The notes under the pieces were generated by a model. The model was not told the origin of the DNA, made no database searches, and worked only from the letters and a program-made list of their open reading frames with translations. The position numbers and the translations under genes were made by a program. Shown here in pieces: positions 13,417 through 54,223 of a stretch of DNA of 64,000 nucleotides. Source of the DNA: Paenibacillus hexagrammi (GTDB lineage: Bacteria; Bacillota; Bacilli; Paenibacillales; NBRC-103111); contig NZ_CP090978.1 of the NCBI RefSeq assembly GCF_021513275.1, positions 992,001 to 1,056,000 on the forward strand, read 5' to 3'. Each line of letters opens with the position of its first letter. Position 1 is the stretch's first letter.

Positions 13417-13421
13417 ATCTC

Positions 13422-14198: not shown

Positions 14199-14222
14199 TG
14201 AACTTGAAAGGGAGAGAAATGC

Positions 14223-15275: not shown

Positions 15276-15312
15276 GCCCCCGGAGGCGGATGAAGGAAAC
15301 GGAGGAACATAT

Positions 15313-18018: not shown

Positions 18019-18037
18019 AAAAATGGAGGGAAATCGT

Positions 18038-20900: not shown

Positions 20901-20918
20901 AGAAGGGGGCTGGGTTTT

Positions 20919-36341: not shown

Positions 36342-37186
36342 TCGGTCAACGACTCGCAAACCTCACACGGCTAAGTCTCAGTTATATTGTGCTCATTATT
36401 CTGGCTATCTGTAGCTTGTATCCAGCGTTATGGATCGTTCTTGGCTCGTTTCGGTCTGGTCGGTCCCTTTATAGCAAGACATTAATTCCCGAAAGCTTTA
36501 CGCTCGATAACTATCGAATCCTTTTTACTTCCAAGAGCTTTTTGTTCGGTCAATGGTATCTGAATACGCTGAAAATCGCCACCATTTCCATGGTGCTTGG
36601 CACCTTCCTGGTCTTGCTGTGCGGTTATGCGGTTTCACGCTTCCGTTTTAAAGGGCGCAGCCTTACATTGTCCATGATTCTAGTTCTTAATATGTTTCCG
36701 GGGTTCCTCAGCTTGATTGCGCTATTTATTCTGCTTAAGGAAATGGGCTTATTAAATACTCACCTGGCTATTATTATCGTGTATGCGGCAGGAGCACCAC
36801 TGTTCACCACTATTCTGGCGAAAGGCTTCTTCGACGCCATTCCACGCAGCCTGGATGAGGCGGCTAAGATTGACGGAGCCAACAACATGACGATTTTTTC
36901 CCGGATCATGCTGCCTCTATCGAAGCCTTTGATCACCTATGTTGCTTTGACCTCCTTCGTCGGACCATGGGTTGATTTTATCTTTGCACGTCTGGTGCTC
37001 CGTTCCAGAGACAAATGGACGTTGGCCGTAGGCCTCTTTGATCAGGTAGTGGGCAATAATCAAAGCTCGAACTTCACATTGTTCGCCGCATCGTCCGTGC
37101 TGATTGCGATTCCGATCACAATTTTATTCATCTTCCTGCAGCGCAATTTGGTTGATGGCTTGACTGCTGGAGCCAATAAAGGATGA
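36338..37186 (+). CDS. malG: Maltodextrin ABC transporter permease MalG
   Basis: This 282-residue inner-membrane protein has about six helices. The binding-protein-dependent transport loop DEAAKIDGANNMTIFSRIMLP near residue 172 contacts the ATPase. The ending GLTAGANKG is typical of MalG/MdxG. ATG overlaps the malF stop, and the stop overlaps the following amylase gene. No malK ATPase is encoded in this operon, so a shared ATPase (MsmX-like) elsewhere is expected. Confidence 0.93.
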   Translation: MIGQRLANLTRLSLSYIVLIILAICSLYPALWIVLGSFRSGRSLYSKTLIPESFTLDNYRILFTSKSFLFGQWYLNTLKIATISMVLGTFLVLLCGYAVSRFRFKGRSLTLSMILVLNMFPGFLSLIALFILLKEMGLLNTHLAIIIVYAAGAPLFTTILAKGFFDAIPRSLDEAAKIDGANNMTIFSRIMLPLSKPLITYVALTSFVGPWVDFIFARLVLRSRDKWTLAVGLFDQVVGNNQSSNFTLFAASSVLIAIPITILFIFLQRNLVDGLTAGANKG

Positions 37187-38964: not shown

Positions 38965-39615
38965 ATGATTAAGATCGTGTTGGCCGATGATCACAAAATT
39001 ATGAGCGAAGGTATTAAGCTGATTTTGGAAAGGGAAAGGGAAATTAAGGTTGTGGGGTACGCCCGTACCGCTCTGGAAACGATGAACCTCTGCACGCAAC
39101 TGCAGCCCGACATGATTGTGATGGATATTTCTTTGCCAAGCCTGGATGGTGTAGAAGGGATCAAACGAATTAAGGACAAGTTCCCCTCTCTAAAAATCAT
39201 GATTTTTACCGGCTGCAGCGATGCCGAGCTGATGGTTCAAGCCATCCATCATGGCGTGAATGGGTATATTCTGAAGGATATCAGCCCCGATGAGCTAATC
39301 ATGGCCGTGAAAAGTGCAGTTACAGGGCTAAGCATCATGCATAAGGATGCACTAAAGGGGATCGTCGAGCATGTGAATCTTTATAAGCAGACTAGCTTTC
39401 TGAGTGAGGATAAAGTTGCGCTTCCTCTTACGGAGCGTGAAATCAACATCATCCGGCATATTGTGGAGGGGAAGGAAAACAGGGAGATCGCCAAGAGCTT
39501 ATTTGTCTCGGAAGGCACGATCAAGAATACGATTTCCGGCATTCTCAAAAAGCTGGAGGTGAGGGACAGGATCCAATTGGTCGTATATGCCATTCGTAAC
39601 AGACTGGTTAGTTAG
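38965..39615 (+). CDS. NarL/LuxR family response regulator (orphan)
   Basis: This 216-residue protein has a receiver domain with the acidic pair DDH near residue 8, the phospho-acceptor in PDMIVMDISLP (about D55) and the lysine in LKDIS. A LuxR-type helix-turn-helix follows (LTEREINIIRHIVEGKENRE, IAKSLFVSEGTIKNTISGIL). No histidine kinase gene is next to it. It lies directly upstream of the carrier-protein operon, separated by a terminator, and could be its activator, but this is positional inference. Ribosome binding site AAGGAGG. Confidence 0.9.
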   Translation: MIKIVLADDHKIMSEGIKLILEREREIKVVGYARTALETMNLCTQLQPDMIVMDISLPSLDGVEGIKRIKDKFPSLKIMIFTGCSDAELMVQAIHHGVNGYILKDISPDELIMAVKSAVTGLSIMHKDALKGIVEHVNLYKQTSFLSEDKVALPLTEREINIIRHIVEGKENREIAKSLFVSEGTIKNTISGILKKLEVRDRIQLVVYAIRNRLVS

Positions 39616-39830: not shown

Positions 39831-40115
39831 ATGACAGAAACGGAAGCTATAAAGGGCATCATTACATCCGTATTAAAATTGGAGGCTCAAGAGGTCTCAA
39901 GTATGGGTCCAGATGAACCTTTAAACACCGTAGGGATGGATTCGATCAATTGCATGGACATTGTCATTCAGATCGAGGAGCATTTTGGCGTCGTGTTTCA
40001 TGATGACGAGCTTCTGCTGGACCAGTTGAACACCATTTCTAAATTGAGTGAGATTGTGATGCGAAAGCTGGACAAGCCATCTGCGGGGATCAAGGAGGAA
40101 GAAGCATGCCGATGA
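39831..40115 (+). CDS. Acyl carrier protein 1
   Basis: This 94-residue free-standing carrier protein has the phosphopantetheine serine in VGMDSINCMDIVIQIEE near residue 38. A helix-turn after it (FGVVFHDDELLLDQL) fits ACP rather than a large PCP domain. It opens the operon with a GGGGG-type ribosome binding site and overlaps the next gene by ten bases. By analogy with BtrI of butirosin biosynthesis it may carry an amino acid during modification. A TATAAT at 39739-39744 may be the operon's -10 box; no convincing -35 was found. Confidence 0.88.
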   Translation: MTETEAIKGIITSVLKLEAQEVSSMGPDEPLNTVGMDSINCMDIVIQIEEHFGVVFHDDELLLDQLNTISKLSEIVMRKLDKPSAGIKEEEACR

Positions 40116-41878
40116 TCGAGGTGGTCGATCTGGTCAAAGAATACCAATTAAATGTAAGGAAGAAGGGATTATTAGGCTCAATTCAAAGTATTTTGATTCC
40201 GGAATATCAGACCAAGCGAGCTGTTGACGGCGTCTCCTTTTCGATTGAGAAAGGTGAAACTGTCGGATTCATAGGTCCTAACGGAGCTGGTAAATCCTCT
40301 ACCGTGAAGATGTTGACCGGTATTTTGGTCCCAACTTCCGGAACGATTAAGGTGGGCGGGTTATCCCCATATAAGGACCGCAAGAAGAATGCTTCCCGCA
40401 TCGGGGTCGTGTTTGGACAGCGAACACAGCTCTGGTGGGACTTGCCTGTGGCGGATACGTATGATTTGCTCAAGCATATTTATAAAATTCCTGATCAGGT
40501 CTATCGGAGCAATCTTCAATTGTTCAGCGAGCTTCTCGGCCTGCATGAATTTATGAAGCATCCCGTACGTCAGCTGAGCTTAGGGCAAAAGATGCGTGCC
40601 GATATCGCTGCTGCGCTGCTGCATGATCCCGATATTATTTTCTTCGATGAGCCTACGATTGGACTTGACGTCGTCGCTAAGGAGAATATTCGAGAATTCA
40701 TTCGAACTGTCAATAAGGAAAAAGGCACAACCATGCTGTTTACGACCCACGATATGGTGGATATCGAGAAGACCTGCCAACGCATGATCATTATTGACCA
40801 TGGCAAGAAGATTTACGACGGAAGCGTGGCGGAAATCAAAGATCTGTACGGCGGCAGCCGCATCTTGGCTGTAGAATTTGCTGAACGTTATCCTCAGGTC
40901 ATAGTGCCGGGCGCGGAACTGATCGAAGAGAAGGATAACAAGAAATGGTTTCGCTTCGAAAAGAATGAGGTTCAGGTTTCACAGCTTATCAATCAGATTT
41001 CCCAAAGATACAGCATTCTCGATCTGACGGTGCAGGAGCCTGAAATCGATAGCGTCATTCGGGATATTTACCAGGGGGAATTCACCTTGATAAGAGTTTA
41101 TCTGGAGTTTGCTAAGAAATCCTTTCAGAACAACCTGGTCTACCGGATGGATTATTTCGCCGGGGTCATCAACGCGCTCGTCATGATATTCGTCAACATT
41201 TCCATCTGGAAGGCGATTTATGAGGAAGAGGAGACGCTGGATGGAGTTCAATTCAAAATTCTGGCGACGTACATCGTGCTCTCCTTTCTCATGCAAGTGG
41301 TGTACATGATGGATGAATATCTGATTGAATCCAAGGTTAGGAGCGGTCTTATTTCCTCGGATTTACTAAGGCCGATCAGTTTCAGAATGTACGTTCTCTC
41401 TCATAGCATCGGAACAACTCTGTTCCGTCTCATTATGCAGCTTGCACCCGCACTGATTATCTCCATTTTTCTATTCAAACTGCTGCCTCCTTTCTCTCTC
41501 GCCATGTTGCTCTACTTCATACTCAGCGCCATTCTAGGTTATTTGGTCCTGTATCAGCTGAACTTTCTGGTCTGGATTAGCTCCTTCTGGTTTTACTGGA
41601 CCTTCAGTCTCGTTACGATCAAGGATGCTGCGGTGATGATCTTCTCAGGCGCATTAATCCCACTGTGGTTTATGCCCTCTTGGCTCACTGATTTTATTCA
41701 GCTCACTCCCTTCGATTCCATGTTCTATACACCGATCCGTATCTACTTGGGCATGATTCCCCAGGAAGAAATCATAGGGGCCATGACAAGGCAAATCATT
41801 TGGGTGTTGATTCTTTTTGGACTGGGGCAGCTACTGTGGAAAGCGGCTGCTAAAAAATTAGTCGTACAAGGGGGGTGA
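40106..41878 (+). CDS. ABC transporter, ATPase fused to ABC-2 permease domain
   Basis: Residues 1-325 form an ABC ATPase of the DrrA/NatA type (Walker A GPNGAGKSS, signature LSLGQKMRADIAAALL, Walker B IIFFDEPTIGLD). Residues 330-590 are an ABC-2 permease with about six helices, of the PF06182 kind. In relatives the ATPase and this permease are usually separate genes. The join falls at DIYQGEFTLIRV, where a G5 run (41074-41078) precedes an in-frame TTG at 41087 with ideal spacing. One extra G would end the ATPase soon after and leave the permease starting at that TTG. The fusion may therefore be a sequencing artefact. It likely exports the cluster's product together with the next gene. Confidence 0.85.
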   Translation: MPMIEVVDLVKEYQLNVRKKGLLGSIQSILIPEYQTKRAVDGVSFSIEKGETVGFIGPNGAGKSSTVKMLTGILVPTSGTIKVGGLSPYKDRKKNASRIGVVFGQRTQLWWDLPVADTYDLLKHIYKIPDQVYRSNLQLFSELLGLHEFMKHPVRQLSLGQKMRADIAAALLHDPDIIFFDEPTIGLDVVAKENIREFIRTVNKEKGTTMLFTTHDMVDIEKTCQRMIIIDHGKKIYDGSVAEIKDLYGGSRILAVEFAERYPQVIVPGAELIEEKDNKKWFRFEKNEVQVSQLINQISQRYSILDLTVQEPEIDSVIRDIYQGEFTLIRVYLEFAKKSFQNNLVYRMDYFAGVINALVMIFVNISIWKAIYEEEETLDGVQFKILATYIVLSFLMQVVYMMDEYLIESKVRSGLISSDLLRPISFRMYVLSHSIGTTLFRLIMQLAPALIISIFLFKLLPPFSLAMLLYFILSAILGYLVLYQLNFLVWISSFWFYWTFSLVTIKDAAVMIFSGALIPLWFMPSWLTDFIQLTPFDSMFYTPIRIYLGMIPQEEIIGAMTRQIIWVLILFGLGQLLWKAAAKKLVVQGG

Positions 41879-41884
41879 TCTCGA

Positions 41885-42709
41885 ATGAAGTCGTTACTAG
41901 ACCTGCTGGTCGTGTTCTATAAGTATTCCATACTGAGCTTGAAGACAACGCTGGAGTACAAATTCGACCGGACGTTAATCACGGTTGCGATCTGCTTCAG
42001 GGAAATGATCAGTGTCATCGTCATGTTCCTCATTCTTACTCGATTTCTTCACATTAAGGGTTGGGAAATGAACGAATTGTTCTTTTTATACAGCTTTTTA
42101 TTCTTATCCTACAGTTTGTTTGTGTTCTTATTCTCGGGAATCAGAGACTTCGATCAGATGGTCTACTCCGGAGAATTTGACCGGCTGCTCATCCGGCCTC
42201 TGGGCTTGATGTTCCAGATTATTGCTTCTAGGGTTGATTATCCGGCTACACTGGGACACGGCATCGTAGGTGTGCTGCTCTTTATGAATACAGCTTTCTC
42301 CGTCGGCATCGAGTGGACTTGGCAGAACAGTCTGTACTACATAGCGGCCTTGATTGGCGGTGCGATCATACAGGCAGCCATCTTCCTGCTGTCGGCTTGC
42401 TTCAGCTTTTGGGTGATACGTACGGAGAATTTGCGCAATCTCATTTTCTTTAATTCTAGAAGGATTGCCGGGTATCCGATCAGCTTTTATCCTGGACTGA
42501 TACAGAAATTGCTCATTTTTGTTGTGCCATTCTCGTTCGTCAATTATTTCCCTGCGCAATATTTTTTAAGAAAAAGTGAGATGGGCTCATTCTGGGAAGG
42601 CTGTATGTATTTGTCGCCGCTCGTCGGCGTTGTCATGTTCATCCTCGTATACTGGTTTTGGAAAACGGGGGCTAAGCGATATTCGAGCTCAGGGAACGCT
42701 TTGTTCTAG
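41885..42709 (+). CDS. ABC-2 type permease (PF06182-like)
   Basis: This 274-residue membrane protein has about six hydrophobic segments. Its central loop DQMVYSGEFDRLLIRPLGLM is the conserved cytoplasmic motif of DUF990/ABC2_membrane_6 permeases. It starts seven bases after the ATPase/permease gene and completes a two-component exporter. This type is common in antibiotic export and resistance modules. It is likely part of the same transcript. Confidence 0.85.
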   Translation: MKSLLDLLVVFYKYSILSLKTTLEYKFDRTLITVAICFREMISVIVMFLILTRFLHIKGWEMNELFFLYSFLFLSYSLFVFLFSGIRDFDQMVYSGEFDRLLIRPLGLMFQIIASRVDYPATLGHGIVGVLLFMNTAFSVGIEWTWQNSLYYIAALIGGAIIQAAIFLLSACFSFWVIRTENLRNLIFFNSRRIAGYPISFYPGLIQKLLIFVVPFSFVNYFPAQYFLRKSEMGSFWEGCMYLSPLVGVVMFILVYWFWKTGAKRYSSSGNALF

Positions 42710-42767
42710 GAAGAGGATTATACAGAGGGGTTTATTTGATGGAAGCTTAGTGGGAGGATCATGAATT

Positions 42768-44341
42768 TTGAAAAAATATACGAATATCATCGTGATTGCT
42801 GTGATTTTAATTGGAGTTTCCGTGTACTACACCGTAAAAAAAGTAAACGTTCAAGACGTGCTACTAGCACTGGGCTACTACGATGAAAAAATCAGCATTA
42901 TCAACACAGGAGATGTTCACGGGCATTTGATGTATGACGAAGCAAACGGCGGATATTATACGCTGGATGAAGTCAGTACGGAGATGGGCATGCCGCTGCT
43001 GAAAGGAATTGCGGACGAGCTTCGCGCCAAGAATCCGAACTCCTTGTTTCTGGACAGCGGAGACATGTTCCACGGTACGAATGAAGCGAACATCAATGAG
43101 GGTGAGGGTGTTGTTGAAGCAGCTAACCTGATGGGGTACGACGCGATGGTTCTCGGCAATCACGACTTGGATTTCGGTTTCGACCGGGCCATGGAAATCA
43201 AGGATCAACTGAAATTTCCTATGCTGACAGCGAATGTCTACAAGAACGGTAAGCCGGCCTTCGAGTCCTACAAGATCGTTACAGTAGGCGGCAAAAAAAT
43301 CGGTCTGTTTGGGTTGACGGTCCCTGAAGCATTGTCGAACATGAACGTGTTGGATCCCAGTGGCGTTACGTTCGAGGATCAAGAGACGGCGGCACGCAGG
43401 GTCATCGCTGAGCTGCAGGAACAGCATGTCGATGCCATCATCTTGATGTCGCACCTGGGGGATGATCTGGATAAAGAGCTGATCAAGAAGGTTTCCGGTA
43501 TCGATTTTATCCTAAGCGGTCATCATCACTGGCTGTATGAAAAGGCAGACAAGGTGAACCAAACCTATCTGGCGGAACCAGGCTCTTACAGTACGCATGT
43601 GGGCTTAGCTGATATGTACTTCAAGGATGGTAAGGTCGCCAAGGTCGCGTGGAGCACCTATCAAACGAAAGACCGGTCCAAAGAGGACCAAGCAGTAGCT
43701 GAAGTTGCCAATAAATATCATGCGATTGCGCTTGAGCAAGGGAAAGAGGTCGTGGGCTCCAGCGATGTGCAGCTTAACGGTATTCGCTCCCAAGTCCGAT
43801 CGAAGGAAACGAATTTGGCGGACCTCATCACGGATGCTATGAAGGAGATAGGACAAGCTGATCTAGCCCTGCTCAATGGGGGGGAATCAGGGAGAGTATC
43901 CCGAAAGGCGAATTGTCCTTGTACACGATCGGCAAGCCGCTGCCGTTTGTTAATTCACTTGTAACCGTCGAGGTGAAAGGCGAAAAGGTGTACGAAGCGC
44001 TCGAAAGAGGACTCAGAGAGTGGCCGATCGGTTCCAGTAACGGCGGTTTCCTGCAGGTCTCCGGAATCAGCTATTCCTTTGACGGCTCCAAGCAAGCAGG
44101 TAAGCGTTTGATCAGCGTGACCATGAATGGACAGCCGCTTGATAAAGATAAGCTGTACAAAGTGGCCGTTAACGATTATCTGGTCAATGGAGGCGATAAC
44201 TACAAGGAATTCGAGGGCGCCAAAATGATCAGCCGTGGAGGACTGCTGCGGGATGTACTGGCAGAATATGTGAAAAGCAAGGGGACAGTGTCGCCGCAAA
44301 CGGAGGGAAGAATCACGATTACCAATGAGAGATACAAATAG
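42768..44341 (+). pseudogene. Membrane-anchored 5'-nucleotidase/metallophosphatase, split by a one-base frameshift
   Basis: The protein starts with an N-terminal membrane anchor (about residues 5-22). The UshA-type metallophosphatase domain then shows GDVHGHL near residue 48, SGDMFHGT near 98, LGNHDLDFGF near 127, MSHLGDD near 227 and SGHHHWL near 246. The frame breaks at seven G (43878-43884), right after ALLNGG. With one more G it continues as GIRESIPKGEL into the C-terminal nucleotidase domain ending at 44341, about 524 residues. An outer-surface phosphatase beside an exporter could activate a phosphorylated product, by analogy with antibiotic clusters. The start is TTG behind GGAGG. Confidence 0.85.
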
Positions 44342-44349
44342 GAGGGAAT

Positions 44350-45477
44350 ATGGGGAAAAAGTCTGTTCAAGACGTGCCGCGCTATTTTGAGCCGTATGTG
44401 AGCGATTGCTTTAACAATGCATATGGTTCCTTGCTAACCCGGATGGGCTACGACCCTCGGTTGGTTTTGGCGGATTACTTATCGTTTATGTACGAGCAAG
44501 AAACCGGATTTATCGGAACAAATTTCTTATTCCATTTTGCCAATTCGGTTGAGTTCTCCGAGGAACAGCTGAACACTTCCTTCGAATTTATTTATTTGCC
44601 TGCAACTCAGTATTACCGGGAAGGAAGGGAATTACCGCCGGTTCATGACCGCATTCAGATCAGCATGAACATTCACGACGACGGTGAGGCTGCAGACAAG
44701 CGGCTTAGAGAGCTGCTGGATGAGAACAAGCCAGTCATTGTCTTTGTAGATTTGTACGATATGCCTTATCATCCTGCTTGCGGCAAGGAGCATGGACTTC
44801 ATGCGATCGTCATAACGGGCTATGATGATGAGCAGGGCGTGTACGAGGTGTTCGACAGATATGAGCTTTCGAGCGGAACGAACTTCTTGGGGACGATCCC
44901 GAAGGAGGACATACGCAGATCTAGACAAGCGTTGACCCCGTGCTCCAATCCGATTGCCGGGAGCTATAACAGGCCGGTTCGAAATCTTTGGATTGAGATG
45001 GATGAATTTCGTCCTGTTCAACTGACGAGAGAAAGGCTGTTGGATGTAGTAAACCGCAGCTGCCGACGGATGGAGGGTGGAGAGGTCATTTTGGGACAGA
45101 TTTGCGGGCTAGAGAGAATCGATGCTTTTCGGCAGGGGCTGTTGAGACGAAAGGAAGGCGCTGTGGATGAACGTTTTGTCTACTTCTTCCGTTCGTACTT
45201 GAATCAAAACCTCAAAGTAATCGCCAGAAGCCGAAGACGCTTTAAGGTGTATCTGGAGACGATCCGCGAGCTGCTCCCGGAAGCGGCGACGAATGCAGCC
45301 TGCGAGGCATTGGAAGAATCAGCAAAGCGTTGGGACATTTGTGCAAACGTTTGTCTGAAGCTGGGAATCACGAAATCGTTGAAGCTGATTGATGACTTGG
45401 ATAAACATTTGCAAGCGATTATGGATTTGGAAAAGCGTGCTATTCAGAGTATAGGTGCTGGATCATTAGCAATCTAA
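44350..45477 (+). CDS. BtrH-like acyltransferase (BtrH_N domain)
   Basis: This 375-residue protein resembles the BtrH N-terminal domain, a papain/C39-like fold that in butirosin biosynthesis transfers the acyl chain from the carrier protein BtrI to ribostamycin. A candidate catalytic cysteine is in VSDCFNNAYGSLL near residue 19. The histidine is in EHGLHAIVITGYDDE near 157, and an acidic residue is in YEVFDRYE. The C-terminal half is helical. It starts eight bases after the nucleotidase gene. An operator-like palindrome lies within the gene at 45344-45353. Confidence 0.78.
   Translation: MGKKSVQDVPRYFEPYVSDCFNNAYGSLLTRMGYDPRLVLADYLSFMYEQETGFIGTNFLFHFANSVEFSEEQLNTSFEFIYLPATQYYREGRELPPVHDRIQISMNIHDDGEAADKRLRELLDENKPVIVFVDLYDMPYHPACGKEHGLHAIVITGYDDEQGVYEVFDRYELSSGTNFLGTIPKEDIRRSRQALTPCSNPIAGSYNRPVRNLWIEMDEFRPVQLTRERLLDVVNRSCRRMEGGEVILGQICGLERIDAFRQGLLRRKEGAVDERFVYFFRSYLNQNLKVIARSRRRFKVYLETIRELLPEAATNAACEALEESAKRWDICANVCLKLGITKSLKLIDDLDKHLQAIMDLEKRAIQSIGAGSLAI
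45339..45354. promoter_or_regulatory. Intragenic copy of the malE operator sequence
   Basis: TTGTGCAAACGTTTGT here is identical over 16 bases to the operator-containing sequence in the malE promoter (33243-33258). It lies inside the coding sequence of the BtrH-like gene (ICANVCLK). Whether it is bound is unknown. Confidence 0.4.
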
Positions 45478-45489
45478 GGAGGATATACG

Positions 45490-45750
45490 ATGACGAATAT
45501 GGAGATTAAAAATCAAATTAAAGAGGCGCTGCAAGGACTAGCAGCAGGTGTAGAGCAGGTAGAGCTGAACGACGAAGTGCTTTTGTCCGATTTAGGTGTG
45601 GATTCCATTAAATACGTGGAGCTGCTCGTACTCATTGAAGAGGGCTGCAGCATTACGTTTGATGAGTCGGATTTGGGCATGGAGGGTCTTCGAAGCATTG
45701 GCGATTTGACGGCGCTCGTTGGGAAAACACTAGCGGGGCAAGTGAGCTGA
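45490..45750 (+). CDS. Acyl carrier protein 2
   Basis: This 86-residue carrier protein has the modified serine in LGVDSIKYVELLVLIEE near residue 40. It differs clearly from ACP 1 (strand after the serine reads ITFDESDLG), so the two probably have different partners. It lies between the BtrH-like gene and the AMP-forming ligase, starts twelve bases after the former and ends one base before the latter, which suggests it is charged by that ligase. Ribosome binding site AAGGAGG. Confidence 0.88.
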   Translation: MTNMEIKNQIKEALQGLAAGVEQVELNDEVLLSDLGVDSIKYVELLVLIEEGCSITFDESDLGMEGLRSIGDLTALVGKTLAGQVS

Positions 45751-45751
45751 C

Positions 45752-47374
45752 ATGAGCCATCGGCTGAGTCTCTGGGGGCTGATGGAAGCAGCATTTCATA
45801 AGCATGCGGCACGTCCTGCATTGTCTTACTCTGACGGAACGACGCTTCGTTATGGGGAGATGGGCGCCTATGTGCGGAGCTTGGCCGATCAATTGAGGGA
45901 GCAGCTTCCCTTCGGCGCCAGGGTGGCGATTCTTGAGAATCGGCCTGTGGATGAAGCCTGTTTGGTGCTGGCCTGCTTGTCATTGAACATGGTCATCGTG
46001 CCGCTCGCCGCCAAGTATGGCGAAGCAAGGTGCGTCCAGATCATACAGCAGACGAGACCGCATGTGCTTGTGACATTGTCGGAACACGGTCTCGGAGCGG
46101 GACTCCAAGCCGCTTGTGCTGAAGCTGGAACGAAAGTGGTGGTACCGGCACTGGCAAGACAAGAGGAGTATGACGCGAACCGTGCGGAAGTCTCGATGCA
46201 CAGAGAGTCATTGAGTTCTGGGGAGACCTTGAGTCGCACGACCCCGGCGGAAGCCCATACCGAGGATGCTGAAGCTCAACTTAGCGATATGCCGCAAGTA
46301 CCGCCTTCTTTCATCATGTACACGTCAGGAAGCACGGGACAGCCAAAGGGAGCCGTACTGACCTATGACAACATCCAATCCAACATGGAGGATATTCAGC
46401 AGTACTTCGAGCTGAACGCGGACGATCACATCCTGATTAACCGCTCACTCAGCCATGCTTCTGTCTTAACGGGAGAGTTCTTGCTGGGTTGTGCTTGCGG
46501 CGCGCAAATGACTTTCTATGATGAACCGTTTGTTCCTAGGCGGCTTGCCAGTTTTATGGAGCAGCGGCATATTACCGTGTTCTGCTCAACCCCGACTATT
46601 TTTTATCAAATGGCCATGGATAAGGTTGAACGCAGGCTGCCTGAGCTTCGTAAAGTGGCCCTCATGGGGGAATATTTGCATAAACAGGTTGCTTTAACCA
46701 TTAGTGAAAAGTATCGGCATGTTCAGTTCTATATGCTGTACGGCCAAACGGAGGCGTCACCGAGGGTGACCTACCTCCCGCCGGAGCATTTCGGTTGGAA
46801 GGAAAGCTGTATCGGCTCACCTATGGTGAGTATGCAGGCCGATGTTGTGGATGATCTAGGACGCAGCTGCCGAACCGGTGAGGATGGGGAGCTGATTTTG
46901 AAAGGACCCAATATATTCTGGGGCTATTGGAACAATCCGGAGCTGACTGAAAGGAAGCTGCGAGACGGATGGCTCTATACCGGTGATATGGTGAGGCGTG
47001 GCGAAGACGGTTATTTGTATATCATTGGCCGAAAAGACGACATGATCATTCGGGCCGGAATGAACATCTACCCGAAGGAAATCGAAGATGTGCTGCTCGA
47101 GGACCGGAGAATCAAACAGGCTGTCGCTTATGGCGTCCCAGATCCTCGATACGGACAAAAGATTCATATATCGGTTGTCAGTCATTCGGAGCTGGAAGAA
47201 CCCCTCTCGGTTATGGAGATTATGGAGATTTGCAAGGGGCGTTTGGCCTCTTATCAATTACCGGACATCATCCGAATTGTAGATGAAATCCCACGTAATG
47301 CCGCTGGAAAGATTGTCCGCAGACAGATCATAGAAGACAGAACCACTAACCTAAATTTAAAGGAGTGTTATTGA
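45752..47374 (+). CDS. AMP-forming acyl/aminoacyl ligase
   Basis: This 540-residue enzyme belongs to the ANL superfamily. The P-loop YTSGSTGQPKGAVLTYDN lies near residue 190, YGQTEASPR near 330, YTGDMVRRGEDGYLYIIGRKDDMI near 409 and the catalytic lysine in RNAAGKIVRRQI near 522. It should activate a carboxylic acid as its adenylate and load the adjacent carrier protein. No condensation or thioester domain is attached, so it is a stand-alone loader. The substrate is unknown. A low-complexity insert is present around residues 150-180. It overlaps the next gene by one base (TGATG). Confidence 0.88.
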   Translation: MSHRLSLWGLMEAAFHKHAARPALSYSDGTTLRYGEMGAYVRSLADQLREQLPFGARVAILENRPVDEACLVLACLSLNMVIVPLAAKYGEARCVQIIQQTRPHVLVTLSEHGLGAGLQAACAEAGTKVVVPALARQEEYDANRAEVSMHRESLSSGETLSRTTPAEAHTEDAEAQLSDMPQVPPSFIMYTSGSTGQPKGAVLTYDNIQSNMEDIQQYFELNADDHILINRSLSHASVLTGEFLLGCACGAQMTFYDEPFVPRRLASFMEQRHITVFCSTPTIFYQMAMDKVERRLPELRKVALMGEYLHKQVALTISEKYRHVQFYMLYGQTEASPRVTYLPPEHFGWKESCIGSPMVSMQADVVDDLGRSCRTGEDGELILKGPNIFWGYWNNPELTERKLRDGWLYTGDMVRRGEDGYLYIIGRKDDMIIRAGMNIYPKEIEDVLLEDRRIKQAVAYGVPDPRYGQKIHISVVSHSELEEPLSVMEIMEICKGRLASYQLPDIIRIVDEIPRNAAGKIVRRQIIEDRTTNLNLKECY

Positions 47375-48501
47375 TGAGTGTATCACTGGAACAAGAATTG
47401 GTATTGGAGCTGGCCGCATTTCGAACGCCGAATAAAGAAAGAATTCTGCAGTTAGTCGGTCAAAGACTGGATTGGGCGGAGGTGCTGGGACACCTCGTAT
47501 ACAACCGCACAGCGGGTATTGCGTATCATGTGCTTCGGCAAATCAGCGCCCCTTTCTTCAACCGTGAGTTTGAGTTCGGCTTATACCTGCTTCATCAGAT
47601 TCAGGCAGAGCGCACCAAATCCCATAAGACATCGATTCTGCAGCTTGCTGATGCACTTAGAGAAGGCGGGATCCCGCATGCTTTCTTGAAAGGCTCCATC
47701 CTGGCCAATTCCATTTATCCGATTGGCTGCAGAATTTCCAGTGATATCGATATTCTTCTCCGTGCGGAGGATCTGACGCGGTGCGGGAATATCTTGAAGG
47801 GGCTTGGCTTTATCCAAGGCTTCCATGATGAGAACGAGAATGTGGTCGTACCTGCGACGAGACGTGAAATTCTCAACTATCGGATGAATTACGGGGAAGT
47901 AGTTCCCTATCGCAAAGTTGCGAACGAGCCTGGAATCAATTTGATTGAAGTGGACATTAACTTCTCACTTGATTGGATGGCTCAAGGTACCGAACAGGCT
48001 GTAGACCAATTCATCGAGAACGCGGAAGACTATCTGTTTGACGGCGTTCATCCCGTCAGCGCGCTGCCGAAGGAATATTTTATCGCTCATCTTTGTGTGC
48101 ATTTGTTCAAGGAGGCGGCAGTCCTCAACTGGGTCGAATGGCAGCGCGATCTCGGCTTTTATAAATTCGTCGACATTTACGCGTTTCTTACCGATCCGCA
48201 GCTGGAGCTCGACTTTGAGAAGCTGATTGACATTATGAGAACCAATAACATTGTCAAAGAGTGCTACTACTCCTTGGCTCATACGCTGACTTTCTTTCCG
48301 GTGCTCCGTGAAAATGCGGGCTTCATGAGCATGCTTGCAGAGATTATGCCGGAATCAACCGATTACCTGGAACAAGTCGTGGACCCTGCGGACGCTTCGG
48401 TTGTGTATGAATGGGACAAAGATCTCCTGACACGCTTTTTCGATATGAAACGGTTCCATCTTCTCAAAAGAATCGGCGATCAAGAGCCGGTTATGAACTA
48501 A
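47374..48501 (+). CDS. PF14907-like nucleotidyltransferase family protein
   Basis: This 375-residue protein carries a nucleotidyltransferase-type pattern near residue 105-130 (HAFLKGSILANSIYP then RISSDIDILLRAEDL, a G-S followed by D-x-D). The rest is helical. This matches the family PF14907, which appears often in natural-product clusters such as lasso peptide loci but has no agreed reaction. ATG 47374 has AAGGAG eight bases upstream. It may tailor the product by nucleotidylation or use the fold otherwise. Confidence 0.78.
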   Translation: MSVSLEQELVLELAAFRTPNKERILQLVGQRLDWAEVLGHLVYNRTAGIAYHVLRQISAPFFNREFEFGLYLLHQIQAERTKSHKTSILQLADALREGGIPHAFLKGSILANSIYPIGCRISSDIDILLRAEDLTRCGNILKGLGFIQGFHDENENVVVPATRREILNYRMNYGEVVPYRKVANEPGINLIEVDINFSLDWMAQGTEQAVDQFIENAEDYLFDGVHPVSALPKEYFIAHLCVHLFKEAAVLNWVEWQRDLGFYKFVDIYAFLTDPQLELDFEKLIDIMRTNNIVKECYYSLAHTLTFFPVLRENAGFMSMLAEIMPESTDYLEQVVDPADASVVYEWDKDLLTRFFDMKRFHLLKRIGDQEPVMN

Positions 48502-48521
48502 GACAAACCAAGGGGGAGCGA

Positions 48522-49412
48522 ATGGACCAAGAAGCGTTTGTAGTAGGCCGTAAGAAGGGGCTGCTGCTGGTGTATGAAGGGATCAGCGGGTCAGGAAAGA
48601 GCATGGGCATCCGCAGGCTTCAGCATTATTTGTCTACGGCCGGCTTAGAAACGGTTACGGTTGAATGGAACGCCAACCCTCTGATCCGAAGCATGGTTCA
48701 AAAGCTGCGGCGCTATCGCCTGCTAACCCCTTGGACCTACAGCTTGCTGCAATGGATAGGCTTCATCATTGATTACTGGACAGTTATCTCTCCTGCCCTT
48801 AGGAAAGGCCGCATCGTGATAGCGGACAGATACGTGTACACCGCAATATCCCGCGATGCGGCGAATGAGGCGGGAGGGATGCTGGCTCGCTTGCTCGGAA
48901 GATGGTTCAGACAGGCGGACATTCTGCTGTTTTTCGATACCCATCCGGAGATCTGCCTGGAACGGATCGTAGCCAGAGGCAAGGTGCTGTTCCATACGAA
49001 CAAACAGCTGCAGAATCAAGATTTGGCCTACTTACAGCGGATGAGGGACGAATACATGAAGCTGTTTCGAATGCTGAGAAGGAAGCGGCGAACCAATATT
49101 ATTGTTGTGGATTCCAGACAAGCGCCCGAGCTGGTTCATCATCAAATTGCAGCGTATATGCAGGAGAAAGCGGGAATAGGCAGGAGTGCGGACGAGAGAA
49201 CAACGAGTAAGGGAACAACGAATAAGAGAACGAGCAAGCACGAGAACGAGCACGAGTATGAGTACGGCGTGAGTAAGAGCACAAGAACGGGCACAAGTAC
49301 GGGCATGAACAAGATCAGCAAAAGAACGAACGCGAGCACTAGCATCAGCTCCGGCAAAACTATGGAAAACATGAGGGAAGTTTCAGCTGCATGGGAGGGG
49401 AAAGATGGATAA
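48522..49412 (+). CDS. Thymidylate-kinase-like P-loop kinase with low-complexity tail
   Basis: The 296-residue protein shows a P-loop VYEGISGSGKSMGIRRL near residue 20, an ADRYVYTAI motif near 104 and a lid region with Arg/Lys (ERIVARGK), as in dTMP kinases. Residues 1-210 cover the whole fold. The last 80 residues are a low-complexity tail rich in Thr, Ser, Lys, Glu and Tyr (EHEYEYGVSKST). A true dTMP kinase would not be expected inside this operon; phosphorylation of a pathway intermediate is more likely. The start ATG follows AGGGGGAG. Confidence 0.78.
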   Translation: MDQEAFVVGRKKGLLLVYEGISGSGKSMGIRRLQHYLSTAGLETVTVEWNANPLIRSMVQKLRRYRLLTPWTYSLLQWIGFIIDYWTVISPALRKGRIVIADRYVYTAISRDAANEAGGMLARLLGRWFRQADILLFFDTHPEICLERIVARGKVLFHTNKQLQNQDLAYLQRMRDEYMKLFRMLRRKRRTNIIVVDSRQAPELVHHQIAAYMQEKAGIGRSADERTTSKGTTNKRTSKHENEHEYEYGVSKSTRTGTSTGMNKISKRTNASTSISSGKTMENMREVSAAWEGKDG

Positions 49413-50670
49413 ACAATTGTTGGCACATATGGCTAATCGTTATGGAACGCCTCTATACGCTTATGATGGCAGCATGATGGAAGCTCAATATAACAAGCTT
49501 AAGAATCATTTGCCGGAAGGCTTTGAGGTGTTTTATTCAGTGAAATCCAACCCGCTGCTAGGAATTTGTCAATATCTCAGACAGCTGGGAAGCCGTATCG
49601 AGGTTGCTTCATTGGGAGAGCTGCACATTGCTTTTCAAGCGGGCTTTGATGCGGATGATATCATCTTTACAAGTCCGGGAAAAACCCGTGAAGAGCTGGA
49701 ATATGCTGTTCGCCAGCGCATTTACTGCATCAATGTTGAGTCTGTGGAAGAGGCTGATCGTATTGACGAAATAGCCCGTTCACTTGGACAAATCGTTCGA
49801 ATTGCGATTCGGATTAATCCGAGCTTCAATATCTCAGGTGCAGGTATGAAAATGACCGGAGTACCGACACAATTTGGTATTGATCAGGAGCATGTGGGGG
49901 AAGCGATTCAAGCGATCCAATCTCTGTCTCATGTGGACCTTGCAGGCATTCATATTTTTACGGGCACGCAAATACTGGATGCCGGGAACATGGTTGCCAA
50001 TATGGAAGCGATCATTGGGCTGTTTCTTGAGTTAACGGAGAATTATAGCATTCGACCTGATTTTCTCGATCTGGGAGGAGGTTTCGGTGTACCCTATTTT
50101 GCCGGCGAAGTGCCTTTGGATATGAACAAGCTGAGGGAGGGGCTAGCGGAGGTCTGGACCACCTATAAGGACCAGCTTAACGGGGTCAGGATCGGTGTGG
50201 AGAGCGGTCGGTTTTTGCTCGCGGAGTCAGGTGTATTTCTAACCAAAGTGCTGTACACCAAGGAGTGCAAGGGCAGTAAATACCTGGTTTGCGACGGAGG
50301 CTCTAATCAGCATGCATCAAGCGCCTTTCTTGGCAGATATGTGAGAAATAACTTTCCTATGTACCTGCTGGGCAAAGAGGGTGATGCTCGGGAAGAGGTC
50401 AATGTCGTAGGGTCCTTATGTACGCCTACCGATGTAATGGGCCAGAAAGTATCACTGCCTCCGGCGGAGCCTGGTGATATTCTCGTCATTGACAAGTCCG
50501 GCGCATACGGGTTAACACACAGTCCGGTGCTGTTTCTAGGGCATGCTCTGCCAGCCGAAGTGTTACACGTTGACGGAGCATTTCACGTCTTAAGGGAGCG
50601 GGGCAAGCCCGAAGATCTTCTGAGAGGGCAGCATCCGCTTCAGCTTGAAAGCCATTTGCAAGGAGTGTGA
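49405..50670 (+). CDS. PLP-dependent decarboxylase (DAP/ornithine decarboxylase family, BtrK-like)
   Basis: This 421-residue alanine-racemase-fold enzyme has the PLP lysine in FYSVKSNPLLGI near residue 48. A glycine-rich phosphate-binding segment LDLGGGFGVPY lies near 220, and the second active-site segment VGSLCTPTDVMG near 334 supplies the cysteine and aspartate. In butirosin biosynthesis BtrK of this family decarboxylates glutamyl-ACP to a GABA thioester. Presence of the ATP-grasp, flavin monooxygenase and carrier proteins beside it supports a similar carrier-bound role rather than lysine biosynthesis. Overlaps the kinase gene by eight bases. Confidence 0.85.
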   Translation: MDKQLLAHMANRYGTPLYAYDGSMMEAQYNKLKNHLPEGFEVFYSVKSNPLLGICQYLRQLGSRIEVASLGELHIAFQAGFDADDIIFTSPGKTREELEYAVRQRIYCINVESVEEADRIDEIARSLGQIVRIAIRINPSFNISGAGMKMTGVPTQFGIDQEHVGEAIQAIQSLSHVDLAGIHIFTGTQILDAGNMVANMEAIIGLFLELTENYSIRPDFLDLGGGFGVPYFAGEVPLDMNKLREGLAEVWTTYKDQLNGVRIGVESGRFLLAESGVFLTKVLYTKECKGSKYLVCDGGSNQHASSAFLGRYVRNNFPMYLLGKEGDAREEVNVVGSLCTPTDVMGQKVSLPPAEPGDILVIDKSGAYGLTHSPVLFLGHALPAEVLHVDGAFHVLRERGKPEDLLRGQHPLQLESHLQGV

Positions 50671-50675
50671 GAGGA

Positions 50676-51719
50676 ATGCCGCCTGGAATCACCATCTATT
50701 CGGAAATACCCGCCAACGAGCAGTTTCAACAGCAGCAGATCAGTAGCCAAACCTATTTACAAACGGTTATTGATATCGCGCAGCAGACGGAGCAGCACGG
50801 ATTGCAAGGCTCCCTGCTTTATTACAATCACCTCATCCTAGATCCTTGGACCTTGGCTGCCACGATTGTGCAGCACACGGAGAAGCTGATTCCGTTAATA
50901 GCCCTGCAGCCTTATACCATGCCCCCCTTAACCGCCGCCAAAATGATCCAGACCATCGGCTACATGTTCGATCGGCCCGTGCATTTGAATCTGATTTCTG
51001 GCGCTATGCAGCAGGAGCTGCAGCAGCTGGGCGATCAGACAAGCCATGACAGAAGATATGAAAGGATTGTGGAATACACGGAAGTGCTGAACATGCTTCT
51101 GTCTGCAACCAGACCTGTGTACTATGAGGGGCTGTTCTATCAGCTGTCGGGCGTTCAGCTCGAGCCTAGGCTGCCTGAACATCTGAGGCCGCGCATTCTC
51201 ATGTCAGGCTCATCGGATGCTTCCATCCAAGCGGCCAGAGAGGCAGCCGACGTGGCGATTACGCATCCGGGTCCCATCGGGCATTTTGAACAATTTGTCC
51301 AAGAGAAGTTCAGTCAGGATAAGCTGCTTGATCTTGGCATGCGAATCGGCATGATTGCCCGCAAGACCAGAGAAGAAGCTTGGAGCCATGCGGAAAGTAC
51401 GTATCAGGTGACGAAGAAAAGCGAACGCCTGACTCAGCTGAAGACCAAATCCGAGTCGGTCTGGAACCGAAATCTGGCCGTTCTGGCGATGGAAAACGAG
51501 TTGTATGACGGTGTGTATTGGCTGGGCGGTTTCAAAAGCGGCGTAGAATTCAATCCGATCCTGGTCGGAAGTTATGAAGAGGTCGCTAGCTATTTACAGC
51601 GGTATATCGGGCTAGGCGTGAATACGTTCATTATCAATAATTTAATCCATAGTCAAGACTTTGAACATGTGGGGCGTGTATTTGAACAGGTGCACGGAGG
51701 TGAAAGGAGAACGCTATGA
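50676..51719 (+). CDS. LLM-class flavin-dependent monooxygenase (BtrO-like)
   Basis: This 347-residue protein is of the bacterial luciferase-like fold. Landmarks are LQGSLLYYNHLILDPW near residue 47, VHLNLISGAMQQE near 103, RYERIVEYTEVL near 128, RILMSGSSDASIQAARE near 172 and a closing VNTFIINNLIHSQDFEHVG. BtrO of this family hydroxylates the carrier-bound GABA chain in butirosin. The flavin reductase partner (BtrV in butirosin) was not found here. ATG 50676 has AAGGAG upstream. It overlaps the next gene by four bases. Confidence 0.82.
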   Translation: MPPGITIYSEIPANEQFQQQQISSQTYLQTVIDIAQQTEQHGLQGSLLYYNHLILDPWTLAATIVQHTEKLIPLIALQPYTMPPLTAAKMIQTIGYMFDRPVHLNLISGAMQQELQQLGDQTSHDRRYERIVEYTEVLNMLLSATRPVYYEGLFYQLSGVQLEPRLPEHLRPRILMSGSSDASIQAAREAADVAITHPGPIGHFEQFVQEKFSQDKLLDLGMRIGMIARKTREEAWSHAESTYQVTKKSERLTQLKTKSESVWNRNLAVLAMENELYDGVYWLGGFKSGVEFNPILVGSYEEVASYLQRYIGLGVNTFIINNLIHSQDFEHVGRVFEQVHGGERRTL

Positions 51720-53116
51720 CGTTTCATTTGATCCATTATGTAACCACACAACGAGGAGAAGGAACCCTCATCTGGATGCTGAACATCGGTGCCGAGAAGT
51801 ATTGGAATCGTGTGCAGGCAGGCATTAACGATCCGAATGAAAACAGGCTTGTGAACCGGGTGGAGGAAATGAACATCCTGCTCTGCCGCGAACAGGACAT
51901 TCTGATTCTTAGAGAGCAGCCGGATGCTGCTTTTATCAGCCGGATGCGGGAATACGGCTTCTCCATTCCCCGCATCCTTACTCCTAGTCAGGCGGATCCC
52001 TTAACGCCCATAGCCGAGCTAGTCCTGCAGGATTCCGCGCTGATGGAGCAGCTCAAGATTTTGGCTGACAGCAGAGAGGATGTTTGTTTCGTTCCGTATG
52101 CGGTCACCGCTTTAGAGGAACAGATTGCGGAGGCTTGCGGGCTGCGGATGATGGGAGCTTCATCAGTGCTTCATGCTTCAGTCAATGATAAGATCATGAA
52201 CCGGCGCATGGCCGAAGAGCTGGGATTTCCTATTACCGAAGGGAAAGTCTGCACATCGATTGAGGAAATTCGCGAAGCCTATGAACGTCTGACAGCGGAA
52301 GCTCCCTTTTTCACCAAGGTCATCATCAAAGAACCTCACGGCGCGTCGGGCAAGGGCTTATATATCGTGGACCATGAGAGCAAACTGGCTCCGCTGCTAA
52401 GCAGGTTCTCCCGCGTACTGCGAAGCAGTCCCGACAGTCAGTGGATTGTGGAAGGTTGGCATGAGAAATCTGCAGATGTCAATTACCAGATCTATGTGGC
52501 TCCGGATGGGACGGTAGATGTGTTTTCTATCAAACAGCAAATCCTGAGAGAGACCGTCTATATCGGCTCTAAGATGCCTCCGACATTAAGTGAAGGAATC
52601 CTGCAGGCGTATCATGAATATGGCCAAAAGATAGGCGCCTACTTATACGCGCTGGGGTATACGGGCATCGCCGGCATTGATTCGATCATTACGAGCGAAG
52701 GGACCATCGTGCCAATCATTGAAATTAACGGAAGGTTCACCTTGTCGACCTATATCTCTTTCCTACAGGGAGTTCTGGGAGAGAGTAAAGTGTTTTCACG
52801 ATACTTTAGAGTACACTCAGACCGGCAGATAAATTATCAGGAACTGTGTGCGCTCCTAGATCATACAGGGATTTTGTACGATAGCAGTCGGGGTGAAGGA
52901 GTCATTCTGTACACGGCGGGTTCGCTTCCTATCCATCGGGACGAGAGCAGCAGCACCTACACGGGAAGAATGTTTGCGCTCATCGTATCGCAAGATTGGC
53001 AGACTAATGAACGAATTCACACTCAATTGGAAAAGATCGTAGACGATCTAGCTCATACAAATCGTAACGTAATGAATGTGCACCTAGCAGGTGAAAAGGA
53101 GGCGGCTCAAGCATGA
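51716..53116 (+). CDS. ATP-grasp ligase (BtrJ-like)
   Basis: This 466-residue protein has a pre-ATP-grasp domain and an ATP-grasp core (KVIIKEPHGASGKGLYIVDH near residue 201, WIVEGWHEKSADVN near 244, and the metal-binding IVPIIEINGRFTLSTYISF near 325). BtrJ, of this type, ligates glutamate to the carrier protein BtrI. A role in loading an amino acid onto one of the two ACPs fits best. Its start overlaps the monooxygenase stop and its end overlaps the next gene by four bases. Confidence 0.82.
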   Translation: MTFHLIHYVTTQRGEGTLIWMLNIGAEKYWNRVQAGINDPNENRLVNRVEEMNILLCREQDILILREQPDAAFISRMREYGFSIPRILTPSQADPLTPIAELVLQDSALMEQLKILADSREDVCFVPYAVTALEEQIAEACGLRMMGASSVLHASVNDKIMNRRMAEELGFPITEGKVCTSIEEIREAYERLTAEAPFFTKVIIKEPHGASGKGLYIVDHESKLAPLLSRFSRVLRSSPDSQWIVEGWHEKSADVNYQIYVAPDGTVDVFSIKQQILRETVYIGSKMPPTLSEGILQAYHEYGQKIGAYLYALGYTGIAGIDSIITSEGTIVPIIEINGRFTLSTYISFLQGVLGESKVFSRYFRVHSDRQINYQELCALLDHTGILYDSSRGEGVILYTAGSLPIHRDESSSTYTGRMFALIVSQDWQTNERIHTQLEKIVDDLAHTNRNVMNVHLAGEKEAAQA

Positions 53117-54153
53117 ATATTCAACTCCCCGTACAAATTCCTCCGATGAAGTGCTGGCAATTTTCCGCGTTTCCGCTCGCCATACTCTTGAATCATGAAC
53201 AGAGTTTGGAATGGATGTTCAGCAGCTTCATTCAAGTTAGCGGGCATACGAATTTTTTAACCCATCCCGTTCCTTTCGGGTTCTACGAGGTGGATTACGC
53301 TTATAACCCATGGCTGAAAGTACATAGGCTGGATCGAAGCCTGATGCCCGTTTTTCGTACTTCGATCAAAGAACTGGTTATTGACTGCTTGAAACGCGGC
53401 TATTACCTCTACTTGAATCTCGATGAGTTTTACGTGCCGAACCGCGTTCCCTATCAAAAATTTAACCGTTCCCATGATGTGCTAGTATACGGCTTCGATG
53501 AAGAAGAGGAGCTCTTCCATCTTCTGGGGTACAATGAACGGTTGATTTTTGACAAAACCACCATCAGCTTCGCTGAATTCGAGCAGGCTTATCATAGTCT
53601 GGAAGAGGTTCCCAACTATTGTCATCAAATATATTTATACCAATTTAACGAAAAGGGAGCCTTTACCTTCGATATCGAGCTGGTTATTCAGAGCTTGAAG
53701 GAATACCTGTACAGCCGAAATACAGCGGCCAAATACAAGCTGTTAGCTGAGCCGGAACCGACTTTTCTCTTCGGCATGCAGACCTATGAGATCTTACAGG
53801 GGTACATGGAGCATCTTATCGGCAGCCCCGACGGATATGTAGATTTGCGCTATATGCATATGCTGTGGGAGCATAAGCACTGGATGACCCGCAGAGTTCA
53901 GTTTCTCATCGAGAAAGGGTACCTTCAACCAGGTGCCGACCTTCTCGAAAAAGCGAGTCATATTGAGAAAAGCAGCGAGTCTGCCAGAAATATGCTGATC
54001 AAATTTTACCGTTCAAGGAATACAGCTAACGTACATGCGGTTAAGCAGATTTTGGAACAGATCCGGCAGAGTGAGTCGTTATTTGTTGAGCAGCTCATAG
54101 AGGCGCTCTCCCTTCCAGAAGTTTATTATGAACGCAAGGCTGAGGGGATGTAG
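53113..54153 (+). CDS. Second BtrH-like/C39-like protein
   Basis: This 346-residue protein has no close motif family but is organised like the BtrH-like gene upstream. A cysteine sits near residue 14 (PMKCWQFSAFPLAILL), and a histidine lies in NRSHDVLVYGFDEEEELFHL near 120 followed by an Asp/Asn-rich strand. The C-terminal half is helical (ending YYERKAEGM). The arrangement suggests a cysteine-acyltransferase fold. It ends the operon before a bidirectional terminator. It may act on the second carrier protein or be a non-catalytic partner. Confidence 0.68.
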   Translation: MNIQLPVQIPPMKCWQFSAFPLAILLNHEQSLEWMFSSFIQVSGHTNFLTHPVPFGFYEVDYAYNPWLKVHRLDRSLMPVFRTSIKELVIDCLKRGYYLYLNLDEFYVPNRVPYQKFNRSHDVLVYGFDEEEELFHLLGYNERLIFDKTTISFAEFEQAYHSLEEVPNYCHQIYLYQFNEKGAFTFDIELVIQSLKEYLYSRNTAAKYKLLAEPEPTFLFGMQTYEILQGYMEHLIGSPDGYVDLRYMHMLWEHKHWMTRRVQFLIEKGYLQPGADLLEKASHIEKSSESARNMLIKFYRSRNTANVHAVKQILEQIRQSESLFVEQLIEALSLPEVYYERKAEGM

Positions 54154-54167
54154 ACGCATTGTAAAAA

Positions 54168-54218
54168 AAACAGCGGTGTTCACGACCCATAGCAGGGTTG
54201 AGACAGCCGCTGTTTCTT
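54168..54218. terminator. Bidirectional terminator at the right border of the cluster
   Basis: A long stem (AAACAGCGG...CGACCC with GGGTTG...CCGCTGTTT) is flanked by A-rich and T-rich runs. It separates the biosynthetic operon from the convergent methyltransferase gene. Confidence 0.85.
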
Positions 54219-54223
54219 TTTTC

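Follow-up and report, generated by a model that had tools for sequence, protein, structure and literature searches.

What do enzymes resembling those of the butirosin side chain build in a locus without recognisable aminoglycoside genes? The question is raised by an operon of Paenibacillus hexagrammi (assembly GCF_021513275.1), which occupies positions 39831..54153 of the 64,000-nucleotide stretch analysed here (NZ_CP090978.1, positions 992,001-1,056,000, forward strand; the window in what follows). The operon is best called a family-level variant of biosynthesis on carrier proteins independent of nonribosomal peptide synthetases (NRPS), equipped with a butirosin-like arm, and not a butirosin pathway. 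Its assembly logic, i.e. carriers, closthioamide-like loading and butirosin-type acyl chemistry, is well supported. For the pathway as a whole, we propose with evenly balanced confidence that a small amide is made, masked by phosphate or a nucleotide, exported and unmasked outside the cell. All substrates, the step order, the mask and the product are what we infer from gene content, gene order, homology, conserved active-site residues and co-occurrence, which are directly observed.

The proteins were identified with Pfam and NCBIfam profile scans. All genes of the cluster lie on the + strand; no intergenic gap exceeds 58 bases, and some neighbouring genes overlap. The features, including an acyl carrier protein (ACP) at either side of the ATP-binding cassette (ABC) exporter and nucleotidase genes, are:

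38965..39615, + strand: LuxR-type response regulator, possibly a regulator of the pathway (Pfam Response_reg and GerE; 215 bases before ACP1)
39831..40115, + strand: ACP1, stand-alone BtrI-like carrier (PP-binding 44.7 bits, cut-off 20.8; 34% to BtrI)
40106..41878, + strand: ABC exporter ATPase and first ABC2_membrane_6 permease in a single open reading frame (ORF) (Pfam)
41885..42709, + strand: second ABC2_membrane_6 permease (144.7 bits, cut-off 22)
42768..44341, + strand: 5'-nucleotidase in two frames (Metallophos and 5_nucleotid_C)
44350..45477, + strand: BtrH1, predicted papain-like acyltransferase (BtrH_N 60.9 bits, cut-off 29.7)
45490..45750, + strand: ACP2, second carrier (PP-binding 36.2 bits, cut-off 20.8), directly 5' of the AMP ligase
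45752..47374, + strand: AMP-forming ligase, probable loader of ACP2 (AMP-binding 213 bits)
47365..48501, + strand: NTP_transf_5 nucleotidyltransferase (107 bits, cut-off 31.2)
48522..49412, + strand: thymidylate-kinase-like P-loop kinase (Thymidylate_kin 64.4 bits, cut-off 27)
49405..50670, + strand: BtrK-type pyridoxal-phosphate decarboxylase (best solved match BtrK, 348 bits)
50667..51719, + strand: BtrO-type flavin monooxygenase, luciferase-like (LLM) (41% over 336 aa, 293 bits to BtrO)
51716..53116, + strand: BtrJ-type ATP-grasp ligase, probable carrier loader (PreAtp-grasp and PGM1_C; hhalign 99.9% to BtrJ)
53113..54153, + strand: BtrH2, profile relative of BtrH1 (BtrH_N 18.6 bits, below the cut-off of 29.7)
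54168..54222, + strand: strong terminator at the operon end (-27.9 kcal/mol, z -5.5)

This layout bears out an earlier note on this DNA, made from the letters alone, which had placed two carriers, an AMP-forming ligase, a decarboxylase of the diaminopimelate (DAP) type, an LLM monooxygenase and an ATP-grasp ligase in one operon. Terminators had been claimed for both ends; the right one stands, but the left hairpin, although terminator-shaped, folds no better than shuffled sequences (z -0.6). Passed over in the note was the constant part of the locus, namely exporter, nucleotidase, nucleotidyltransferase and kinase, and also the upstream response regulator.

Comparison with butirosin and closthioamide enzymes

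As butirosin reference set we used genome G059, which was reached via the solved BtrK sequence and whose BtrK is 95% identical to it. G059 carries this gene together with BtrG-, BtrH-, BtrI-, BtrJ- and BtrO-like genes and a DHQ_synthase-type gene taken as 2-deoxy-scyllo-inosose (DOI) synthase; the Btr names other than BtrK are our assignment from gene order. Two further genomes, G077 (locus L099) and G206 (locus L100), gave matches to all nine butirosin genes tested. By homology to the G059 set, ACP1 is a BtrI-type carrier (52 bits), the ATP-grasp ligase is BtrJ-type (29% identity; hhalign E 5e-34), the decarboxylase BtrK-type (41%, 341 bits) and the monooxygenase BtrO-type (43% by tblastn in addition to the BLASTP value listed), the next-best homologue of the monooxygenase comparison in the organism's own genome reaching 90 bits and 30%. 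Of the butirosin side-chain enzymes proposed in the earlier note, BtrI, BtrJ, BtrK and BtrO were recovered as homologues. No match to DOI synthase, BtrD, BtrS, BtrG (the deprotection enzyme) or BtrH was obtained in the full window at E 1e-3, in agreement with its statement that a 2-deoxystreptamine synthase gene and BtrG are missing. The likeness to butirosin comprises a carrier, the BtrJ-, BtrK- and BtrO-type enzymes and a BtrH_N protein. In contrast to butirosin, the cluster lacks counterparts of BtrG, DOI synthase, BtrS and BtrD, has a decarboxylase outside the BtrK clade, and adds a second carrier accompanied by an AMP ligase of its own, an exporter, a nucleotidase, a nucleotidyltransferase and a kinase.

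The decarboxylase belongs by Pfam/NCBIfam class to the ornithine/DAP type; among solved structures, the best DAP decarboxylase scored 170 bits. A second decarboxylase homologue of the genome, at C1:3318256, which we take to be the organism's own LysA, shares 28% identity (146 bits) with the cluster enzyme. A housekeeping origin of the latter, which stands near BtrK and far from the presumed LysA, was rejected on this ground. The motif ESGR was found in 40/40 BtrK-type enzymes collected and EPGR in 0/40, and the presumed LysA carries EPGR. In a midpoint-rooted tree of 40 rows, the cluster decarboxylase fell into a 17-row set (support 99/98) made up of enzymes of the operon family and a few others, such as that of L123; the BtrK proteins formed part of another clade. 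As judged from its sequence, the enzyme is related to BtrK, on a separate branch. In butirosin biosynthesis BtrK decarboxylates glutamyl-BtrI, as described in PMC7857480.

The earlier claim of two BtrH-like proteins holds for one of them. In BtrH1, Cys20, His148, His151 and Asp169 are invariant in 12/12 aligned sequences. According to its AlphaFold model (predicted local distance difference test, pLDDT, 87; range over five models 80-87), helix 20-31 begins with Cys20, strand 150-159 contains His151 and strand 164-169 terminates in Asp169, a papain-like order of Cys, His and Asp elements. BtrH2, which missed the BtrH_N cut-off, shows no invariant Cys or His in a six-row alignment; hhalign gave a probability of 97.4% between the BtrH2 and BtrH1 profiles and 70.7% between BtrH2 and BtrH. 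One predicted transferase, BtrH1, is well supported; BtrH2 is doubtful as an acyltransferase and may be a non-catalytic partner. The BtrH family is described as papain-fold transacylases (PMC2922099), and BtrH_N is placed near the peptidase families C39 and C70 (PMC10318531). With BtrH1 as query, a profile search of the Protein Data Bank produced no significant match (best E 0.5), and phmmer gave a best E of 0.074 (UPF0045), with AziU3/Azi29 at 0.12-0.13. Scanning named genomes with BtrH1 alone yielded 16 candidate stretches, none of them related. Genomes of the order were searched in samples of 384-392, drawn evenly from the larger group with few candidates scored per genome, and BtrH1 was found at 1e-20 in 11/392. 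Four more BtrH2-like places exist in the P. hexagrammi genome (C1 3993234, 4214256, 4230627 and 2425536; L027-L030), one with a response regulator paralogue and one with ABC, LLM and ligase pieces.

For the loading of carriers, closthioamide offers a parallel. As described in PMC6772006, its pathway (CtaD, CtaI, CtaE, CtaH, CtaG, CtaJ) uses two stand-alone carriers and stand-alone transferases without an NRPS, and the carriers are charged by an ATP-grasp ligase and an acetyl-CoA-synthetase-type ligase. By gene content the operon is of the same kind: it encodes a pair of stand-alone carriers and one ligase each of the ATP-grasp and the AMP type, and no NRPS was seen in it. The comparison with the Cta proteins is by description; no thioamide synthetase or chorismate lyase was recognised in the operon. 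The note's view that NRPS and polyketide synthase domains are missing stands for the 19 proteins scanned with Pfam/NCBIfam, none of which contains such a domain. Which ligase would serve which carrier is suggested by gene position.

Constant and variable parts of the operon family

The nucleotidase was detected at 1e-120 in 14/384 genomes of the order, at 15 loci, and exporter permeases and a nucleotidyltransferase were present at all 15. Together with six loci from genomes chosen for an ATP-grasp match, these formed a set of 21 loci, from which a weak 30% ATP-grasp match (G395:C331) was excluded; the bit thresholds for gene counts were our own choice. For L043 the ATPase, and for L183 the ATP-grasp, entered the counts as absent since the stretch ends there; the latter is seen in L120 of the same record. 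Over the 21 loci we counted the nucleotidyltransferase at 20, the kinase at 18, the ATP-grasp and the AMP ligase at 16 each, BtrH1 at 15, the decarboxylase at 14 and an aminoacyl-tRNA-synthetase-like (aaRS-like) ligase at 3. The second permease and the nucleotidase lie on the same strand at 21/21, at 18 with a gap of at most 140 bases; the larger gaps are 306 bases in L186 and, where frame-broken genes left fragments to measure from, 432 in OWN2 and 680 in L024. A response regulator homologue was counted at 9/21 loci, and at six (window, OWN2, L041, L042, L067, L185) it stands 193-257 bases from ACP1.

Relatives from several genera share the gene order, with 42-83% identity between corresponding genes, which is beyond chance. 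In the mapped relatives it runs carrier, ATPase, permease, permease, nucleotidase, BtrH1, carrier, AMP ligase, nucleotidyltransferase, kinase, decarboxylase, ATP-grasp, apart from genes lost or inserted. The genomes G114 and G106 each carry the set in two pieces, with kinase, decarboxylase and ATP-grasp at the second locus. Relatives occur in both Bacilli and Clostridia. Scanning named genomes with an ATP-grasp alignment found 15 related stretches among 53, in Paenibacillus marchantiophytorum, P. athensensis, two Paenibacillus sp., five metagenome-assembled genomes, Cohnella cholangitidis, C. panacarvi, Chengkuizengella axinellae, Ruminiclostridium cellobioparum, R. hungatei and Acetivibrio mesophilus; one of these 15 loci (L123) is in another context and one (L121) is too short to tell. 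At E 1e-60 the ATP-grasp was present in 11/104 family genomes, also in other contexts (e.g. L044-L046), and among 72,556 plasmid records five contained distant relatives, all below 60% identity.

Mean identities to the window in five relatives that possess every gene of the set (L022, L023, L041, L042, L069) were 75-80% for the exporter and 71% for the nucleotidyltransferase, followed by the decarboxylase (63%), ACP2 (60%), the ATP-grasp (58%), the AMP ligase (53%), ACP1 (52%), the kinase (47%) and BtrH1 (46%). The conservation of exporter and nucleotidyltransferase against diverging acyl genes suggests that both may act on a portion of the molecule that is held in common. The constant part of the family is the exporter, the nucleotidase, the nucleotidyltransferase and usually the kinase, and the acid-loading and side-chain parts are variable.

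Among the loading ligases, the AMP ligase lies at most 14 bases from ACP2 at 6/21 loci. In L068 and L071, where no AMP ligase was counted, an aaRS-like ligase (PF00587) adjoins a small carrier-like gene, which has no Pfam match at 0.01 but matches the L043 carrier (36-39%); an aaRS-like ligase in this place points to loading of an amino acid. L181 was counted as aaRS-like without AMP ligase, though a weak ligase-like ORF is present (22%, 58 bits), and L047 and L048 have neither type, with an ATP-grasp and an acyl-CoA dehydrogenase instead. A thioesterase is encoded in L184 and a carbamoyltransferase in L181. Two further proteins recur among the 21 loci: one of about 900 residues with a weak central esterase match (L022 10185-12881 and relatives, 8 loci), and one of about 380 residues without significant Pfam match (L043 11341-12492 and relatives, 5 loci), which accompanies a divergent nucleotidyltransferase.

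The nucleotidase has a hydrophobic N-terminus and is probably membrane-anchored and outward-facing. Its position beside the exporter suggests that phosphate or a nucleotide would be removed after export. In the nucleotidyltransferase, Gly110, Asp127, Asp129 and Asp197 are invariant in 13/13, the pattern of active enzymes of the fold; its AlphaFold model is of moderate quality (pLDDT 83 for the best of five, which span 54-83), and a Protein Data Bank profile search (NTP5) gave nothing significant (best E 0.5). At 1e-30 it was found in 27/384 genomes, eleven of them at 63% identity or more and all of these within the 14 nucleotidase genomes, the other three of which carry divergent forms. The kinase scored 65.1 bits on dTMP_kinase, below the cut-off of 83.25. 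Its ORF opens at 48411, and start 48522 was preferred because of its ribosome site. At its end (49160-49380) the ORF encodes a repetitive stretch in which Lys, Ser, Thr and Glu are abundant.

Proposed pathway and alternatives

In the proposed pathway, the BtrJ-like ligase would load an amino acid, by analogy glutamate, onto a carrier (probably ACP1), where the BtrK-like enzyme would decarboxylate it. In the version present in the window, the BtrO-like enzyme would hydroxylate the product to a 4-amino-2-hydroxybutyryl-like group. A further acid or amino acid would be loaded onto ACP2 by the AMP ligase, and BtrH1, as a Cys-His-Asp acyltransferase, would join the carrier-bound group to this second unit or to a free acceptor. 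Kinase and nucleotidyltransferase may then add phosphate or a nucleotide in the cell, keeping the product inert; the ABC exporter would move the masked product out, and the 5'-nucleotidase, anchored outside, would remove the mask. The sequence of loading, decarboxylation, hydroxylation and transfer given in the earlier note remains the best reading of that part, which is a variable module, the decarboxylase being present at 14 and a BtrO-like gene at 2 of the 21 loci.

Phosphorylated precursors occur in streptomycin and neomycin biosynthesis, although our literature search for them was without result. For the lasso peptide pseudomycoidin, a kinase (PsmK) and a nucleotidyltransferase-like protein (PsmN) are described that act on the same product one after the other (PMC9266682). 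The likeness is by description; unlike that system, no lasso precursor or cyclase was seen in the cluster, and the cluster kinase is thymidylate-kinase-like.

More tentatively, and with somewhat greater doubt than belief, we suggest that the relatives represent a family of Bacillota products which are made on stand-alone carriers, masked inside the cell by their own nucleotidyltransferase and kinase, exported, and unmasked on the outside by their own 5'-nucleotidase; the acyl arms would be exchangeable, the butirosin-like one among them. No description of such a family was found in the literature searched. Nor was a paper on the cluster found in that literature, which contains few subscription papers, so that it may have been published. 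The gene set is not unique to this genome. If true, the proposal would extend butirosin carrier-protein chemistry to non-aminoglycoside products in Bacilli and Clostridia. The pairing of exporter, nucleotidase and nucleotidyltransferase would also offer a concrete, testable idea of how the producing cell could hold its product inactive before export, and the set could serve as a marker for finding more such clusters.

Several observations speak against the proposed pathway. NTP_transf_5 protein and kinase could build the product instead of masking it. The kinase is weakly conserved compared with exporter and nucleotidyltransferase, which is off-pattern, and 13 of the 27 nucleotidyltransferase genomes have no nucleotidase match at 1e-120. 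In L182 (7527-13678), a second R. hungatei locus, exporter, nucleotidase, carrier and ligase are present, and no nucleotidyltransferase or kinase was detected in the 20 kb stretch. On the side of acyl chemistry, BtrH1 aligned with BtrH at an hhalign probability of 95.3%, yet without a BLAST match at 1e-3; the BtrO-like gene is rare in the family, and a flavin reductase was not seen among the operon genes. Finally, the nucleotidase of the window changes frame somewhere between about 43880 and 43913, close to seven consecutive G.

The alternative that survives best, although we consider it unlikely, is that nucleotidyltransferase and kinase build a nucleotide-containing product such as a peptidyl nucleotide, loosely microcin C-like, with the nucleotidase serving self-protection or a last trimming. 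The same core genes fit it, and in a published tree (PMC7857480) the BtrK clade includes MccE, an enzyme that decarboxylates a substituent on the phosphate of microcin C. However, the cluster decarboxylase has BtrK as its best solved match and stands in the company of a BtrJ homologue and carriers. Moreover, no MccB-type domain (ThiF) or nucleoside-forming domain was present in the scanned operon proteins.

A modification of a surface or secreted polymer, like that by the exosortase-A-associated set of ligase and decarboxylase, appears improbable. The cluster decarboxylase and ligase show a family-level resemblance to that set (393 bits on TIGR03099 and 242 bits on TIGR03098, respectively). 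But BtrK itself reaches 382 bits on TIGR03099, a model that therefore does not tell the two types apart; the curated cut-offs (478 and 592) lie above both cluster scores, and no exosortase match exists in the genome. An exosortase association was rejected for these reasons.

Still more doubtful is the idea that the operon supplies a butirosin-type arm to an acceptor, e.g. an aminoglycoside, whose genes lie in another part of the genome. The joint presence of BtrI, BtrJ, BtrK and BtrO homologues would agree with it, but the one DOI-synthase-like match of the whole genome (39% over part of the query) is presumably AroB, as a housekeeping gene would give, and the decarboxylases of the DOI-synthase loci G059, G077 and G206 fall into the other clade of the midpoint-rooted tree. 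The dedicated exporter and nucleotidase suggest a complete pathway instead. An acceptor pathway of a known metabolite was not recognised in the annotated neighbours of relatives, among which no systematic search was made.

Frame breaks and a second copy of the operon

The nucleotidase is a single open frame in the relative L022 (3814-5406), and in relatives ATPase and first permease are two overlapping ORFs (e.g. L022 1195-2205 and 2180-2968). A sugar ABC permease upstream of the operon (34984-36341) also lies in two overlapping frames. A second operon copy is present in the P. hexagrammi genome (L021 and L049, C1 about 3505400-3519700); several of its genes are frame-broken, BtrH1 and BtrH2 are missing, and a gene of about 900 codons occupies the position of the monooxygenase. 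Decay of the operon to a non-functional state, with which the broken nucleotidase, the broken second copy and an ATPase-permease fusion that could itself be an indel would be consistent, is highly improbable, since the two-frame sugar permease and the G run near the nucleotidase break make sequencing indels likely and the remaining operon genes are open. Sequencing indels are the simplest reading of the frame breaks, though unproven.

Neighbouring features

The regions on either side of the cluster (34984-38832 and 57928-59682) contain amylase-type genes and a sugar transporter. Homologues of some of these also flank L047 and L048, and the location of the cluster may therefore be old. Farther upstream, a gene run at 11323-21488 resembles, by reading, cobalamin uptake and synthesis genes, and two adjoining proteins of about 380 residues each (25546-27863) both contain a DGQHR motif.

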